DNA of 64,000 nucleotides from Pseudomonas sp. EpS/L25. GTDB taxonomy: Bacteria > Pseudomonadota > Gammaproteobacteria > Pseudomonadales > Pseudomonadaceae. Below are positions 3,701 through 62,037 of the stretch, one piece after another. The DNA lies in contig NZ_LNUP01000002.1 in NCBI RefSeq assembly GCF_001512295.1, positions 524,027-588,026 on the forward strand. The letters run 5' to 3'. The position numbers were made by a program, and so were the translations under genes. The notes beneath the pieces are model-generated. The model did not search any database and had not been told where the DNA came from. It saw nothing but the letters and a program-made list of their open reading frames with translations. The first letter of the stretch is position 1. Every line of letters begins with the position of its first letter.

Positions 3701-4619
3701 CGACGTCAACCTGCAGCAACTGCGTATCCCCCAGACCCCGGCTGATCCCTCCGTGGCCAGCGAGGCGCCCCGTCCCGATCCGCTGGCCGACGTGGATCCG
3801 CGCAAGCTGCCGGCGCTCAATCTGGCCATCGACCGCCTGGAGCTGGGCGGTCGGCTGGTCGGTGCCCAGCGTCTGCAACTCAGGCCGTCGCCTTCCGGAG
3901 CCAACTTCAATGCCCTGGACCTGGACCTGCGTGGCCTCAAGGTACAGGGCGCCCTGCGCTGGGAGGGCGCACCCGGGGCGACCCGCAGTTATTACCAAGG
4001 TCGCCTTTCCGGCGGCAACATCGCCGACATCCTGCTGGGCTGGAACTTCGCCTCCAGTGTGACCAGCCGCGATTTCCGCCTGGATGCCCGGGTCGATTGG
4101 CCCGGCTCGCCGGCCTACGTCGCCCTGGCCCGCCTCAACGGCAGCCTCGACGCCCGCTTCAACAACGGCCAGTTGCAGCAGGTGGAGGGCACCGCCTCGG
4201 CGCTGCGCATCTTCGGTCTGCTCAATTTCGAATCCATCCGCCGCCGTTTGCGCCTGGACTTCTCCGACCTGTTCGGCCGTGGCCTGAGCTACGACAGCAT
4301 CACCGGGGTGCTCGACGCCCAGCAGGGCGCCTTCCGCACCCGCAAACCCATCACCCTGACCGGCCCCGGCGCCGAGATGAGCCTGCGGGGGTTACTGGAC
4401 ATGGCCAACAACCAGGTCGATGCCGATCTCAAGGTCGGCCTGCCGGTGAGCAACTCGCTGCCGCTGGCTGCCCTGATCGCCGGTGCGCCGGCCATCGGTG
4501 GAGCCCTGTTCATCGTCGACCGGCTGATCGGCGATCGCCTCACCCGCATGGCCAGCATCAACTACCACATCGAGGGACCCTGGCAGAATCCGACCATGAC
4601 CGCGGGCAAGCGCGATTGA
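786..4619 (+). CDS. yhdP: YhdP family AsmA-like envelope protein
   Basis: Very large (1277 aa) protein of the YhdP/TIGR02099 family. One N-terminal membrane anchor (about residues 9-32, LELTLLALLTLYVGLG then a basic/amphipathic stretch) is followed by a long repetitive beta-rich periplasmic body. By family knowledge, YhdP-type AsmA proteins bridge inner and outer membrane and carry phospholipids to the outer membrane, partly redundant with TamB and YdbH. The length is close to the roughly 1270 aa of the E. coli protein. The C-terminal AsmA-like part (around residues 1120-1260) contains the LNFESIRRRLRLDFSDLF segment typical of the family. It starts 12 bp after rng and is probably co-transcribed with it. 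Confidence 0.9.
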   Translation: MSLLKRGALILELTLLALLTLYVGLGRLLMPWVGEYRNEVEARAATALGEPVRLGRLEGRWAVWNPVLVLRDLTLGRGDSAVQLDHLKVVPDVFASLWHRQLRLKSVQIDGVHLVLQEDAQGHWQLRGLPPRQPDTKPFDPAPVLDALARLDHASLLDSQLSLIPRQGSPVTLRYVEASLSRQLNGSLALATRFRLPDGGTVAAHLDATPRPQDWRASTLQGYVSLPASDWARWVPAELLQQWQLRRAQAEGELWFDWAEGRLQRSRLQLRAAELTLAYAERAPVRLEALQLDVAQDATAAHQQAALALKARLDGQPLEGSFGLVYDSAAQHLQVRGDQLDLAQAARLARDLAPLPAPVAQAVQALAPHGRLRNLNADLYPQKPLAERLTYATNVERLGFAAYHGAPAADGITGSLSGSLGSGELRLDTSDFMLHLADLFPEPWRYRTAKARLTWSLDDQRFTLGSALMQVTGPEGTASGDMHIQLGLHPEVDSYMDLRVGLKDGDASYTRKYLPTRLPAADFSPELAQWLSTAIVGGRIDEAIYQYQGSLRHGSPVHSRTMSLFFRVHDAQLAYQPGWPALRQARGDVFIENDGVKVQVPEGRILDTRVRDVEALIPLLHDGSAPHLRLTARLDSSVRDGLKILQEAPLPTAKVFAGWKGEGALANSGLSLDIPLAKAQPPVVVVDLTADKARLELADPKLTLSDIRGAFRYDTRSGLSAPDIQARAFDQPIRGQALAEGKPDAPRTRLVLDGQVEVDQLARWLGSGRRPLPARGLLGYRLGLTLDDHSELAVTSDLRGVRIDLPAPFGKGADEARDGFFSLALNDGERRVEATYKGLADAVLMVDPAAIAKGRGEIVLGGGTANLPTSAGYDLRGRLAEFDLSAWQGVYQRYLAPPASDGSGAGQGGGNRPDVSSLGRGDLTFDRFLAFGQEIDDLRLTYEPQDSAWQLGLASQAVTGQVRIPRQTGQPIDVNLQQLRIPQTPADPSVASEAPRPDPLADVDPRKLPALNLAIDRLELGGRLVGAQRLQLRPSPSGANFNALDLDLRGLKVQGALRWEGAPGATRSYYQGRLSGGNIADILLGWNFASSVTSRDFRLDARVDWPGSPAYVALARLNGSLDARFNNGQLQQVEGTASALRIFGLLNFESIRRRLRLDFSDLFGRGLSYDSITGVLDAQQGAFRTRKPITLTGPGAEMSLRGLLDMANNQVDADLKVGLPVSNSLPLAALIAGAPAIGGALFIVDRLIGDRLTRMASINYHIEGPWQNPTMTAGKRD

Positions 4620-18826: not shown

Positions 18827-19477
18827 ATGCTCAAGCTAATTCGTCACGGAGTGATCGCGATCCTGGCCCTGCTGCCTCTGGTCTCCCAGGCGGCACCCTC
18901 GGCCCACGACGTGATCCAGCAGACCACCAATACGCTGCTGTCGGACCTCCAGGCCAATCGCGACAAGTATCGCAGCAGTCCGGAAGCCTTCTACGAGTCG
19001 CTGAACACCATCCTCGGTCCGGTGGTGGACGCCGAGGGCATCTCGCGCAGCATCATGACCGTGCGCTACAGCCGCAGCGCTACCCCGGAGCAGATGGCCC
19101 GCTTCCAGGACAACTTCAAGCGCAGCCTGATGCAGTTCTATGGCAACGCCCTGCTGGAATACAACAACCAGGGCATTCGCGTGCTGCCGGAAGGTCCGGC
19201 CGACGGTCCCGACCGCACCAGCGTCGGCATGGAGGTCAAGGGCAACAACGGCGCCGTGTATCCGGTGCAGTACAGCATGGTCAAGCAGGGTGATGACTGG
19301 AAGGTGCGCAACGTCATCATCAACGGCCTGAACCTTGGCAAGCTGTTCCGCGACCAGTTCGCCCAGGCGATGCAGGACAACAACGGCGATCTGAACAAGA
19401 CCATCGACAACTGGGCGGGCACCGTGGCCAAGGCCAAGGATTCTCCCGAGGCCCAGAAGGCCAAGGTCGGTTCGTGA
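18827..19477 (+). CDS. mlaC: Periplasmic phospholipid carrier MlaC (Ttg2D)
   Basis: 216-aa periplasmic shuttle between MlaA at the outer membrane and MlaD. The signal peptide is clear (MLKLIRHGVIAILALLPLVS then QAAPSAHD). The Ttg2D/MlaC domain includes NRDKYRSSPEAFYESLNTIL and VYPVQYSMVKQGDDWKVRNV. I prefer the ATG at 18827, which has GAGAGG 7 bp upstream and begins directly with the signal peptide; upstream ATGs at 18809 and 18812 are possible. It overlaps the GTG start of mlaB. Confidence 0.94.
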   Translation: MLKLIRHGVIAILALLPLVSQAAPSAHDVIQQTTNTLLSDLQANRDKYRSSPEAFYESLNTILGPVVDAEGISRSIMTVRYSRSATPEQMARFQDNFKRSLMQFYGNALLEYNNQGIRVLPEGPADGPDRTSVGMEVKGNNGAVYPVQYSMVKQGDDWKVRNVIINGLNLGKLFRDQFAQAMQDNNGDLNKTIDNWAGTVAKAKDSPEAQKAKVGS

Positions 19478-19788
19478 GCCGCGCCGCCATCACCGGCGAA
19501 GGCGCCCGGCTGCAACTGTCGGGCGTGCTCGACCACGCCACGGTGCCGACCCTGCGCGAGCGGGGTGGGGCGCTGATCGGACAGGGTAGCGGCCCGCTGG
19601 TGCTGGACTGTGCGGCGGTCGAGCGCTCCAACAGCGCCGGCCTGGCGCTTTTGCTGGCCTGGGTGCGCGATGCCCAGGCCGCGGGTCGGTCCTTCACCAT
19701 TGCCAATCTGCCTTCCGAGCTACGGCAGATCGCCGATGTCTCGGATGCCTTGGAGCTCCTTCCTCTCGCGGACCAGGCTCACGCCTAG
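19474..19788 (+). CDS. mlaB: STAS-domain protein MlaB
   Basis: 104-aa single STAS domain (LQLSGVLDHATVPTLRERGG, VLDCAAVERSNSAGLALLLA) that binds MlaF and is needed for transporter assembly and activity. It starts with GTG, overlapping the mlaC stop by 4 bp. It is the last gene of the mla operon here: a palindromic repeat element begins at the last base of its TAG stop, separating it from ibaG and murA, which directly follow it in many relatives. Confidence 0.9.
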   Translation: MSRAAITGEGARLQLSGVLDHATVPTLRERGGALIGQGSGPLVLDCAAVERSNSAGLALLLAWVRDAQAAGRSFTIANLPSELRQIADVSDALELLPLADQAHA

Positions 19789-19941
19789 GCTCCGTCGGAA
19801 AGGTGCCTGCGCTCGGCCGGGCGGTGTTGAAGTCCGCGAGGTAGCCAGCCCGGTCGGGATGCTCGTTTACCACTCGTACACTGAGCGTCCGCCCTCACTT
19901 CACCTTGCCGAGCCTTCGTTCGGCAATTTTCCAGATGAGCC
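19788..19941 (+). repeat. Palindromic intergenic element, copy A (subfamily 2)
   Basis: 154 bp, the most diverged of five related elements. Outer repeats are GGCTCCGTCGGAAAGG on the left and AATTTTCCAGATGAGCC on the right. Apical core ATGCTCGTTTACCACTCGTA is shared with the others. Middle stem TGAAGT pairs with ACTTCA, flanked by GGTG and CACC with an unpaired TT on the left side. It begins at the last base of the mlaB stop codon. Confidence 0.75.
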
Positions 19942-21555: not shown

Positions 21556-22188
21556 ATGCTGACCATCGCCCTGTCCAAGGGCCGTATCCTCGACGACACC
21601 CTGCCGCTGCTGGCGGCGGCAGGGATAGCGCCGACCGAGAATCCGGACAAGAGCCGCAAGCTCATCATCCCGACCACCCAGGACGATGTGCGCCTGCTCA
21701 TCGTCCGCGCCACCGACGTGCCCACCTATGTGGAGCATGGCGCCGCGGATCTCGGTGTGGCCGGCAAGGACGTGCTGATGGAGTACGGCGGCGATGGCCT
21801 CTACGAGCCGCTGGACCTGCGCATCGCCTGCTGCAAGCTGATGACCGCAGGCGCCGTGGGCGCTCCGGTGCCACGCGGCCGGCTGCGGGTGGCGACCAAG
21901 TTCGTCAACGTCGCCAAGCGCTACTATGCCGAACAGGGTCGCCAGGTCGACATCATCAAGCTGTACGGCTCCATGGAGCTGGCACCGCTGGTGGGGCTGG
22001 CCGACAAGATCATCGACGTGGTCGATACCGGCAACACCCTCAAGGCCAATGGCCTGGAGCCCCAGGAGCTGATCGCCCATATCAGCTCGCGCTTGATCGT
22101 CAACAAGGCGTCGATGAAGATGCAGCATGGTCGCATCAAGGCCCTCATCGAGACCCTGCGCCACGCCGTCGAAGCGCGCGGCGCCTGA
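21556..22188 (+). CDS. hisG: ATP phosphoribosyltransferase, short form HisG
   Basis: 210-aa catalytic subunit of the first histidine-biosynthesis enzyme. It begins [19 protein letters not shown]. It is the short HisG type lacking the C-terminal regulatory domain, so by family knowledge it needs HisZ (not in this window) for activity and feedback control. [16 protein letters not shown] and the phosphate-binding [16 protein letters not shown] are present. Palindromic element copy B starts at the first base after its stop and parts it from hisD. Confidence 0.96.
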
Positions 22189-22358
22189 GAACCTGTTCAA
22201 AGCCTGCTGCGCGTCGGCCAAACTACGTTAAAAATGGCTTCGGAATGCTCATTTACCACTCGTAAACTCGTTCGCGAGCCCGGTCCGCTTCCTCAGCCAT
22301 TTTCGCGGGGCCGCCTAGGCCTTGTTTGTCTCTAGCTCGCGAGACTTTGAACAGGCTC
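22189..22358 (+). repeat. Palindromic intergenic element, copy B (subfamily 1)
   Basis: 170 bp, starting at the first base after the hisG TGA. Ends GAACCTGTTCAAAG and CTTTGAACAGGCTC are near-perfect inverted repeats. Middle stem AAAATGGCT pairs with AGCCATTTT. Apical core ATGCTCATTTACCACTCGTA is followed by AACTC. It is longer than copy C because of two insertions relative to it: 15 bases (GTTCGCGAGCCCGGT) after GTAAACTC, and about 14 bases after ATTTTCGC. Confidence 0.85.
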
Positions 22359-22509
22359 TAAGGCTGGGCCGGCATGCTGAACGCCGGCCCGGGCTGATTC
22401 CATCCCTCCAGCTTCGCCTATCCGTGCCATAGCCAAATTGTCGGGCGCCCACACGGAGCCGGCTGTTACTCTCGGGCGCCCCTTTCGCTCATCCTGAAGA
22501 GGACTCGCC
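22359..22509 (+). promoter_or_regulatory. hisD leader: hairpin and two GC palindromes
   Basis: After element B, this 151-bp stretch completes the only gene-free gap over 300 bp. It holds a hairpin GGGCCGGC/GCCGGCCC (22366-22390) and two identical TCGGGCGCCC repeats (22441-22450 and 22472-22481) spaced 31 bp, each containing the palindrome GGGCGCCC. A promoter or operator for hisDC is likely here, but I see no convincing -35/-10 pair. Confidence 0.4.
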
Positions 22510-23829
22510 ATGACCGCTCCGCTCGCCATCCGCCGACTCGCTGCCGCCGCTCCGGATTTCGCCGAGCATCTGGATCATCTGCTGAGCTGGGAAGGGGTGT
22601 CCGACGCCGATATCAACCAGCGGGTCCTGGCGATCATCGCCGACGTGCGCCACCAGGGCGACGCCGCGCTGCTCGAATACACCCGCCGCTTCGATGGCGT
22701 CCAGGCGACGGCCATGAGCGATCTCATCCTGCCGCGCGCGCGCCTCGAAGAAGCCCTGACCCGCATCACGCCGGAGCAGCGCACCGCGCTGGAAGCCGCA
22801 GCCGAGCGCGTCCGCAGCTATCACGAGAAGCAGCGCCAGGACTCCTGGCAATACCGGGAAGCCGACGGGACCGTGCTCGGCCAGCAGGTTACTCCGCTGG
22901 ATCGTGCCGGTCTCTATGTGCCCGGTGGCAAGGCTTCCTATCCCTCCTCGGTGCTGATGAACGCCATTCCCGCCAAGGTCGCTGGCGTGTCCGAGGTGGT
23001 CATGGTGGTGCCCACGCCCCGCGGCGAGCTCAATGAACTGGTGCTGGCGGCGGCGGCCCTGGCCGGCGTCGATCGCGTCTTCACCATCGGTGGCGCCCAG
23101 GCCGTGGCCGCCCTGGCCTATGGCACCGAGAGCGTGCCGCCGGTGGACAAGATCGTCGGCCCCGGCAACATCTATGTCGCCACCGCCAAGCGCCACGTGT
23201 TCGGCAAGGTCGGTATCGACATGATCGCCGGTCCCTCGGAAATCCTGGTGGTCTGCGACGGCCAGACCGATCCCGACTGGATCGCCATGGACCTGTTCTC
23301 CCAGGCCGAGCACGACGAAGACGCCCAGGCCATCCTGGTCAGCCCGGACGCCGCCTTCCTCGACGCCGTGGCGGCCAGCATCGCCCGGTTGCTGCCGGAG
23401 ATGGAGCGCGCCGACATCATCCGCGCCTCCCTGGAAGGCCGCGGTGCCCTGATCCAGGTCGCCGACATGGCGCAGGCCATCGAGGTGGCCAACCGCATCG
23501 CCCCCGAGCATCTGGAGCTGTCCGTCGCCGAGCCAGAGCAGTGGCTGCCCAAGATCCGCCATGCCGGTGCCATCTTCATGGGTCGCTACACCGCAGAGGC
23601 CCTGGGCGACTATTGCGCCGGCCCGAACCACGTACTGCCCACCTCGGGCACCGCGCGTTTCTCGTCGCCCCTGGGCGTGTACGACTTCCAGAAGCGCTCC
23701 TCGATCATCCACTGCTCGGCCACCGGCGCTTCTGCGCTGGGCCGGGTCGCCTCGGTCCTGGCGCGCGGCGAGTCCCTGACCGCCCACGCCCGCAGCGCCG
23801 AATACCGCATTCAGGAGGAGCAGGCATGA
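22510..23829 (+). CDS. hisD: Histidinol dehydrogenase HisD
   Basis: 439-aa zinc enzyme performing the last two oxidations of histidine synthesis (histidinol to histidine). Family signatures include [37 protein letters not shown] and the EHDEDAQ metal/catalytic region; SEHLEL-type residues appear as PEHLELSV. The ATG follows GAAGAGGA. hisC overlaps its stop by 4 bp. It is separated from hisG by 321 bp carrying element B and a hairpin, so hisDC probably has its own promoter. Confidence 0.97.
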
Positions 23830-24881
23830 GCGACCTCTGGAGTCCCTTCGTCAGGAACCTGGTGCCCTATGTGCCGGGCGAGCAGCCCAAGCTGACCAAC
23901 CTGGTCAAGCTCAACACCAACGAGAACCCCTACGGCCCGTCGCCGCAGGTGCTGGAGGCCATCCGCGCCGCGGCCACCGACGACCTGCGTCTCTATCCCG
24001 ATCCGAACGGCCAGGCGCTCAAGGATGCGGTCGCTCGCTATTACGGCATCCAGAGCGAGCAGGTCTTCGTCGGCAATGGTTCGGACGAAGTCCTGGCGCA
24101 CATCTTCCTGGGCCTGTTCGGCCACGGCCGGCCGATCCTCTTCCCGGATATCAGCTACAGCTTCTATCCGGTGTATTGCGGCCTCTACGACATCGCCTTC
24201 GAGACGCCGGCGCTGGACGAGGATTTTCAGATCGTCCCGGAAGACTATCTGCGGCCCAATGGCGGCATCATCTTCCCCAATCCCAATGCGCCCACCGGTA
24301 GCGCCCTGGCGCTGGACGCCATCGAGCGCGTTCTGGCCGGCAATCCCACCTCCGTGGTGGTGGTGGACGAGGCCTATGTCGACTTCGGTGCCGAATCGGC
24401 GGTCGCCCTGATCAATCGCTATCCCAATCTGGTGGTGACCCAGACGCTGTCCAAGTCGCGTTCCCTGGCCGGGCTGCGCGTGGGCCTGGCCATGGGGCAG
24501 GCGCCTTTGATGGAAGCCCTGGAGCGGATCAAGAACAGCTTCAACTCCTACCCGCTGGACCGCCTCGCCCTGGCCGGCGCGGTGGCCGCCTTCGAGGATC
24601 GCGGCTATTTCGACGAGACCTGCCGGCAGGTGATCGAGAGTCGGGAGGGGCTGGTGAGTGCGTTGCTGGAGCGCGGCTTCGAAGTACTGCCTTCGGCGGC
24701 GAACTTCATCTTCGCCCGTCATGTGCAGAAGGGCGGTGCGGCACTGGCGGCGGGACTGCGCGAGCATGGCGTCATCGTTCGCCACTTCAGCCGCCCGGAG
24801 CGCATCGCCGACTTCCTGCGCATCACCATCGGCACCCCGGCGCAGAACCAGGCGTTGATCACTGCGCTCGATACTCTCTGA
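23826..24881 (+). CDS. hisC: Histidinol-phosphate aminotransferase HisC
   Basis: 351-aa PLP-dependent fold-type I aminotransferase that converts imidazole-acetol phosphate to histidinol phosphate. The PLP lysine is K210 in [25 protein letters not shown] near the N terminus and PNPNAPTGS are typical. The ATG at 23826 overlaps the hisD stop by 4 bp and has an AGGAGGAG site inside hisD. Element C begins at the first base after its TGA and fills the gap to convergent algW. Confidence 0.96.
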
Positions 24882-25020
24882 GAGTCTATTCAAAGGCTGC
24901 TGCGCGTCGGCCAAACGGCGTTGAAAATGGCTTCGGATGCTCATTTACTACTTGTAAACTCCGCTTCCTCAGCCATTTTCGCCTTGTTTGTCTCTAGCTC
25001 GCGATCCTTTGAACAGGCTC
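24882..25020 (+). repeat. Palindromic intergenic element, copy C (subfamily 1)
   Basis: 139 bp, compact reference copy. Left end GAGTCTATTCAAAGG and right end CCTTTGAACAGGCTC pair 13 of 15. Inside, CAAAC/GTTTG, GGCG/CGCC and GAAAATGGCT/AGCCATTTTC extend the stem, with an unpaired TT left of GAAAA. The apical hairpin is TTTAC-TACTT-GTAAA. It occupies essentially the whole gap between the stop codons of convergent hisC and algW. Confidence 0.88.
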
Positions 25021-37065: not shown

Positions 37066-37205
37066 GTCGCGCGCTTTTTCGGGGTCAAGCCCCTTGATGC
37101 GCTCCTAACCCCACACACGCATCGACACGATGACCTGGGTGCTTCCCGATGGGAAGTTGGTCATTGGGATGCGTGGAGGCCCAACCCGACTACGAGGAAC
37201 ATCTA

Positions 37206-51736: not shown

Positions 51737-51893
51737 GGCTTATGTCTGAAAAGTGCCTGTGCTCGGCCATGTGGCGTTAATAGTCCGCTGGGTCGCCAGT
51801 CCGATCGGAATGCTCATTTACCATCCGTAAACTCCGCTTCCTCACGGATTTTTGCCAAGCCTGACCGTCACTCGACTACTTTTCAGACAAGCC
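51737..51893 (+). repeat. Palindromic intergenic element, copy D (subfamily 2)
   Basis: 157 bp between rnhB and dnaE. Ends GGCTTATGTCTGAAAAGT and ACTTTTCAGACAAGCC pair perfectly apart from an extra AT. The apical core matches the other copies (GGAATGCTCATTTACCATCC then GTAAACTCCGCTTCCTCA), hairpin TTTAC-CATCC-GTAAA. The middle stem has a different sequence from copies B and C (AGTCCG with CGGATT) but still pairs. An unpaired GTT lies on the left side. Confidence 0.85.

Positions 51894-57903: not shown

Positions 57904-62037
<4,134 letters not shown>

Follow-up and report, generated by a model that had tools for sequence, protein, structure and literature searches.

The window, by which we mean the whole 64-kb stretch of DNA analysed here, belongs to a 5.4-Mb genome in 18 contigs (G000) and contains five dispersed palindromic elements, copies A to E. 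A common core is present in all five, at the positions given in a preliminary description of the sequence. Copy C (24882..25020, forward strand) is a 139-nt element with terminal inverted repeats (TIRs) of type 1, GAGTCTATTCAAAG and CTTTGAACAGGCTC, and without a side module. Its core (24938..24964, forward strand) reads TGCTCA-TTTAC-N5-GTAAA-CTCCGC and is the portion that recurs across phyla. The left target copy of C, TGA (24879..24881, forward strand), is also the stop codon of the open reading frame (ORF) 23541-24881; the right flank is TCG, so that a perfect duplication is no longer present there. Copy B (22189..22358, forward strand) is a type-1 element of 170 nt with two modules, alpha at the apex and gamma in the 3' arm. 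Its left target copy, TGA (22186..22188, forward strand), is the stop codon of ORF 21556-22188 and differs from the right flank, TAA (22359-22361). The third type-1 element is copy E (60526..60664, reverse strand), which has 139 nt, is inverted and follows immediately after the stop of ORF 59671-60525. The ends of the remaining two copies are type-3-like. Copy A (19788..19941, forward strand) is degenerate, has CTAG at both borders and starts at the TAG stop of ORF 19474-19788, and copy D (51737..51893, forward strand) has the ends GGCTTATGTCTGAAAAG and CTTTTCAGACAAGCC, the borders CTAG and CCAG, and a CTGGGTCGCCAG side module. For four of the five copies, the start coincides with or directly follows the stop of an ORF longer than 100 codons (stops at 19788 for A, 22188 for B, 24881 for C and 60525 for E).

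The five copies had been described as each folding end to end into one long hairpin, which is roughly right. As RNA, copy C on both strands and copy E fold in this way (z = -6.3, -6.7 and -5.9; all 200 shuffles were less stable), whereas the minimum-energy folds of copies A and B are branched. The reported weakness at the top of copy A is real, as its apical stem is broken (GTTTAC versus GTACAC). The statement that no transposase is nearby holds for the two models searched: DDE_Tnp_1 matches 5 places in the genome and the IS5-family model NF033580 matches 46, none of them in the window. The sole Rfam match of the window at the gathering score is a t44 RNA (37094-37185, forward strand, 76 bits), which lies away from the copies.

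The expectation of hundreds of copies genome-wide proved correct. TGCTCATTTACN5GTAAAC is found 219 times in G000 at two mismatches or fewer (113 forward and 106 reverse), with a reversed-pattern control of zero, and a longer exact core occurs 74 times. Further copies, sought as support for a family, also occur in related genomes: 35 of 57 relatives have the core. The anatomy was analysed in 119 distinct copies from G000. Type-1 ends (GAGCCTGTTCA...) are present in 81 of them, a figure that retains a few copies with doubtful ends (e.g. L048 and L119), and type-2 ends (GTTCTGTACGAAAA...) in 19. The end rule left another 19 copies unassigned, 9 of which have type-3 ends (TGTCTGAAAAG) under a looser test; three TIR sets are present in this genome. 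The base form of the element is 139-140 nt long with ends GAGCCTG... or GTTCTG..., and the elements overall measure about 140-240 bp. The idea that the core is better conserved than the arms within the genome was rejected, the conservation values being 0.92, 0.92 and 0.91 in 30 copies found by BLAST. A strand bias along the complete genome G003 was also rejected: for its 68 places, the best arc contrast was matched by 483 of 2000 shuffles, in a scan in which the first 3 kb of the contig were not recognisable as an origin.

The flanks of the copies reveal how they were inserted. Identical 3-bp flanks surround 43 of the 81 type-1 copies, every one being TAA, TGA, TCA or TTA, and are absent in the other 38; shuffling of the right flanks gives a mean of 13.3 and a maximum of 24 identical pairs in 2000 rounds. 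The type-1 consensus is C-TNA-[element]-TNA-G with the target C-TNA-G, and type-2 copies have CTAG-like flanks. Empty orthologous sites exist as well. Site B is empty in G007 (GCCTGA GTCCT GGCCGG) and in G004 (GCCTGA GTGTCT GGCCGG) and filled in G003 (GCCTGA-[element]-TGG GTCCT GGCCGG), and filled B sites carry TGA-[element]-TNN. Site C is filled in G000 and G004 and empty in G006-G011; in G003 a separate type-2-like element lies a few bases off in the opposite orientation, and G002 retains an apex-less remnant. Insertion polymorphism (sites B and C) and target-site duplication (type-1 flanks), both criteria for MITEs, are thus found, and by the features tested the family consists of MITEs. 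This mobile nature had been missed in the preliminary description, which overlooked the TIRs, the target duplications, the empty sites and the different TIR types of the five copies, together with the same-ended IS5-family insertion sequences (ISs) of the genus and the presence of the core in several phyla.

Whichever base stands in the middle, TNA reads as a stop codon on one of the two strands. The TNA target ends a coding-like ORF of at least 100 codons in 36 of the 81 type-1 copies; for the CTNAG sites of the window the figure is 11 of 84. The off-frame control of this test is high (24 of 81), which makes it noisy, and stop placement in type 2 amounts to 5 of 19. According to a crude gene caller, 82 copies have an upstream gene, and 45 of these lie at most 6 nt from its stop. 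This caller was wrong for some neighbours, missing the gene left of C and the one right of D, and no reliance was placed on the orientations it assigned (58 tandem, 24 convergent, 11 divergent, 19 edge and 3 inside, with 4 of 119 copies too near a locus end). The proximity to gene stops in both counts, and the strong hairpin of copy C on both strands, would suit elements that are kept as 3' gene-end devices, i.e., portable terminators or mRNA stabilisers that spread by transposition and are retained for their use. We consider this rather doubtful, because target choice and the loss of harmful insertions can explain the position, and because a terminator scan found no excess in the 7-kb stretch with A, B and C (4 versus 3.0 expected, one of them inside B) or in L156 (1 versus 3.0 expected). 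On the basis of this simple scan, the terminator reading was dropped as the main one and retained as a rival. Since TNA is a stop on one strand, a gene that receives an insertion at its own stop stays whole, and a TNA target at stop codons may provide simple entry to a dense genome without gene breakage.

The stems of the elements covary. In an alignment of 20 distinct type-1 copies of exactly 140 nt (A2; copies C and E of the window have 139 nt), standard pairs fill 97.4% of the cells of the end-to-end structure, which was derived from the same copies, versus 27-51% in slid controls. Changes on both sides occur in 13 of 52 pairs and in 62 cells, versus 22.1 cells in shuffled alignments (0 of 500 as high) and 2-6 in slid ones. 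A second alignment (A1) contains 28 copies from 25 genomes, i.e., 24 of 35 copies extracted from other genomes and 4 from G000. Here, 13 of 21 pairs have double changes, with 97 cells versus 30.6 shuffled and 21-33 slid; the pairing in this alignment may be inflated by the omission of L132, L139, L144, L145, L146, L157, L160 and L228-L231, the arms of which could not be aligned by eye. The number of pair types is not above the shuffles in either alignment (186 of 500 as high for A2 and 103 of 500 for A1). The invariance of the apical helix in A1 was not used as evidence, because the exact search pattern imposes part of it.

Five optional modules, recognised in the 119 copies by short strings with few mismatches allowed, are located at fixed places within the element. 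The most frequent is alpha, which lies beside the apex (56 copies), followed by beta-short (52), beta-long (32), delta, of about 60 nt (27), and gamma (23); 41 copies have no module. All five are found in type-1 and type-3 copies, and alpha, beta-short and delta in type 2 too. Alpha and beta-short occur together in 41 copies, gamma and delta together in none of the 119. At the orthologous site B, alpha and gamma are present in G000, G002 and G009, only gamma in G008, and neither in G003, G006 and G011. Because orthologous copies differ in this way, modules come or go in place.

ISs with the ends of types 1 and 2 exist within the genus. An 846-bp IS in G006, flanked by TTA on either side, is identical to the type-1 copy L050 in 17 of 17 positions at the right end and 16 of 17 at the left end; its transposase is in pieces and scores above the cut-off for DDE_Tnp_1 and below it for NF033580. 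The same genome contains a 908-bp IS, in which both ends are identical to the type-2 copy L107 (16 of 16 each) and the transposase is above the cut-off for NF033580. Type-2 ends adjoin transposases in G000 and G010 too, and type-3 ends flank transposases at three places in G000 (L161/L163, L162 and L165), the ends in L162 having 0 and 1 mismatches of 15 relative to the type-3 string. The G000 transposases beside type-2 and type-3 ends score above the cut-off of NCBIfam NF033580, the IS5 family. Beyond the 16-17 terminal nt, the similarity between MITE and IS is at background for types 1 and 2, and a base-by-base comparison of the type-3 copy L110 with its IS gives a match over only 10 bases near one end. 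The core is absent from all three ISs compared. Ordinary internal-deletion MITEs, in which every TIR type would be an internally shortened copy of the corresponding IS and convergence or later recombination would account for the common core, would be compatible with the 16-17 identical terminal nt, and the occurrence of modules in several types does make exchange between types likely. This reading nevertheless fails already for the three ISs, which lack the core and the interiors of which are missing from the compared MITEs, and it is further contradicted by the same asymmetric core in very distant genomes; we regard it as highly improbable.

Copy number does not follow the ISs that are present today. 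Six of 13 genus genomes (G002, G003, G007, G008, G009 and G011) are without an NF033580 match and contain 35 to 68 cores each at one mismatch or fewer, whereas G005, G001 and G012 have many NF033580 matches and only 7, 2 and 1 cores, respectively. Among 30 IS loci from 12 genomes of other genera (18 searched), no convincing match to the ends was found. The nearest, scored over 15 + 15 positions, were G221 (1 + 4 mismatches), G147 (3 + 3) and G167 (5 + 2), in a comparison that took only the best-scoring transposases and in which DDE_Tnp_1 includes other IS families. Many partial IS5-family matches were also noticed at the ends of the G000 contigs C1, C2, C4, C5, C6, C9, C10, C11 and C15, so that a multi-copy IS5-family element probably interrupts the assembly there. 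Remains of type-2 and type-3 ISs adjoin an IS630-family transposase frame of 387 residues (L162:279-1439), which has CTAGTGTGGTGTTTCAGAAAT inverted repeats on either side.

The core is widespread beyond the genus. Exact matches to CTCATTTACN4-6GTAAACTNCGC are present in 58 of the 369 Gammaproteobacteria genomes searched, the own genome included (50 of 272 genera), with a reversed control of zero, and a phylum-wide draw detected the core in 32 of 398 genomes, 8 of them outside the Gammaproteobacteria. When named genomes were scanned with a pattern of 26 fixed bases, at least 120 stretches matched. Among the matches listed are Pseudomonas, Halomonadaceae, Marinobacter, Nitrosomonas, Chromatiales and Mariprofundales, as well as one Desulfobacterales MAG (4 loci) and 18 Bacteroidota MAG loci, mostly from ruminant gut according to their titles. 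The core is present in 3 to 46 copies in each of the 8 Bacteroidota MAGs counted, and in 59, 176 and 169 copies in the Desulfobacterales, Mariprofundales and Nitrosomonadales MAGs, respectively. MAG mixing is an unlikely source of the distant copies, because 8 MAGs hold several copies each, most with their own kind of ends. In the Mariprofundales MAG and in one Alistipes MAG, head-to-tail pairs or triples about 109-138 bp apart were observed (L305 around 3907-4046; G798 contigs C23, C61 and C71).

Most of 41 chosen loci have CGTT-stem-CTCAAAATG-core-CTTTTTCG-stem-GCCT in common and differ in their ends; in the Mariprofundales copies, CGTT and the core are not separated by a stem. Of the 156 loci scanned, 119 were called as having terminal repeats that agree in at least 13 of 16 positions. 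These repeats form 51 loose clusters; the call was automatic and rough, and inner arms are picked up as well. Identical 4-bp flanks are present in 30 of these 119 loci (many CTAG, CTAA, TTAG or TTAA) and TNA triplets in 5, with a scoring that favours such flanks. Searches with an exact core are unable to tell whether the core is the best conserved part. Support for this comes, in one record, from BLAST, in which the core is not fixed: L156, itself found by its core, aligns with a Halomonas replicon over 90 nt of the interior only (90.0%), and copy C aligns with the same Halomonas record at 79.1% over the interior, the ends remaining unaligned. A match on a P. veronii plasmid covers the ends too (72.7% over 99%), so that the ends are not always different. 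Among 72,556 plasmid and 50,697 phage records, copy C matches one plasmid and no phage, whereas L156 matches 3 plasmid records; the exact core is present in 9 stretches among 2.9 million viral contigs; the family is mainly chromosomal.

The recurrence of the core across phyla with different ends, and its persistence in the six genus genomes that lack an NF033580 match, could also indicate that the core is the real recognition unit, i.e., that the elements are mobilised or maintained by a core-binding protein, be it a transposase, a recombinase or a replication factor, with the IS5-like ends being secondary. We judge this unlikely, because the target duplications and the empty sites are located at the TIRs, and ISs of the genus have the same TIRs as types 1 and 2.

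Previously described repeat families were compared with the elements. Rfam gave no match on the copies at the gathering score and only chance-level matches at permissive E-values. A search of the main text of openly licensed papers, with the core letters in either orientation and by topic, gave no fitting paper among the matches listed. Within this scope, the earlier view of a dispersed palindromic family without a named match is supported, and the family may have been described before under another name. The elements resemble bacterial IS5-family MITEs in being short and polymorphic in insertion, with TIRs that equal those of ISs of the genus and a TNA or CTAG-like duplication, and differ from them by an interior that is foreign to the compared ISs and common to three TIR types and to several phyla, and by the optional modules. 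The centre of the animal CORE-SINEs, which are RNA-copied retroelements, is conserved while their ends differ with the mobilising partner; the likeness is one of working only, and no relation is claimed. REPs and REPINs with their RAYT transposases are likewise high-copy, palindromic and often located behind genes, but REPs are reported to be 20-40 bp long with an unpaired GTAG or CGTC end motif (PMC3733652, PMC3116915). The elements described here, with about 140-240 bp, TIRs and target duplications, do not conform to the REP unit, and the CGTC in type 1 is inside the 5' arm and not at the end. The R0-R200 and IR1_g repeats of Pseudomonas fluorescens, as described by Silby et al., are also high-copy and intergenic with inverted ends, show a tail-to-tail bias and are suspected MITEs; they were compared by description only (PMC2718517). 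Coxiella QMITE1 and QMITE2 are bacterial MITEs with strong hairpins too, and QMITE2, like the present elements, is found mainly outside coding sequence, in 3' untranslated and intergenic regions. They are set apart by their description: QMITE1 has 300-400 bp, whereas QMITE2 contains a GTAG REP and has direct repeats that are 7-11 nt long and vary in sequence (PMC5896051). A further MITE/REP paper was among those from the topic search (PMC10969869).

What appears unusual in this family is that one interior is common to several sets of ends and to distant bacteria. We consider it likely, judging from the sequence comparisons, that an old MITE lineage retains its core, with its ends being altered to fit whichever IS5-type transposases are resident. 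IS5-family transposases would act in trans on the elements at their TIRs, and insertion would duplicate a 3-bp TNA target in type 1 or a 4-bp CTAG-like target in types 2 and 3, copies that land elsewhere in genes presumably being lost. The interior would not be a shortened IS but one old structured unit, CGTT-stem-CTCAAAATGCTCATTTAC-N5-GTAAACTSCGCTTTTTCG-stem-GCCTTG, which may persist while the ends are exchanged to fit the transposase at hand. More tentatively, and with somewhat less than even confidence, we suggest that the structured core of about 65 nt is a selfish unit that has persisted across at least three phyla and has repeatedly adopted the terminal repeats of resident IS5-type elements, as a DNA-transposon counterpart of the CORE-SINEs, its sequence being retained because the core is read by a widely conserved factor, either of the host or of transposition. 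MITEs are usually viewed as dead-end fragments of one IS. If the centre is indeed kept while the ends change, a non-autonomous bacterial element can outlive, and switch between, transposases, and what reads the core would then be open to test.

The compensatory changes in the stems and the modules probably arise from recombination between copies or from template switching within the palindrome, and the same two processes may account for the gain and loss of modules. The module differences at one orthologous site would provide a good natural system for studying palindrome recombination or template switching. As a minor observation, beta-long from the 5' arm (GGCCTAGGCGGCCCC) and gamma from the 3' arm are reverse complements of each other, but out of register, e.g. 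in L014 and L021; the two modules co-occur in 10 of the 119 copies, and their relation is what template switching in a palindrome would give.
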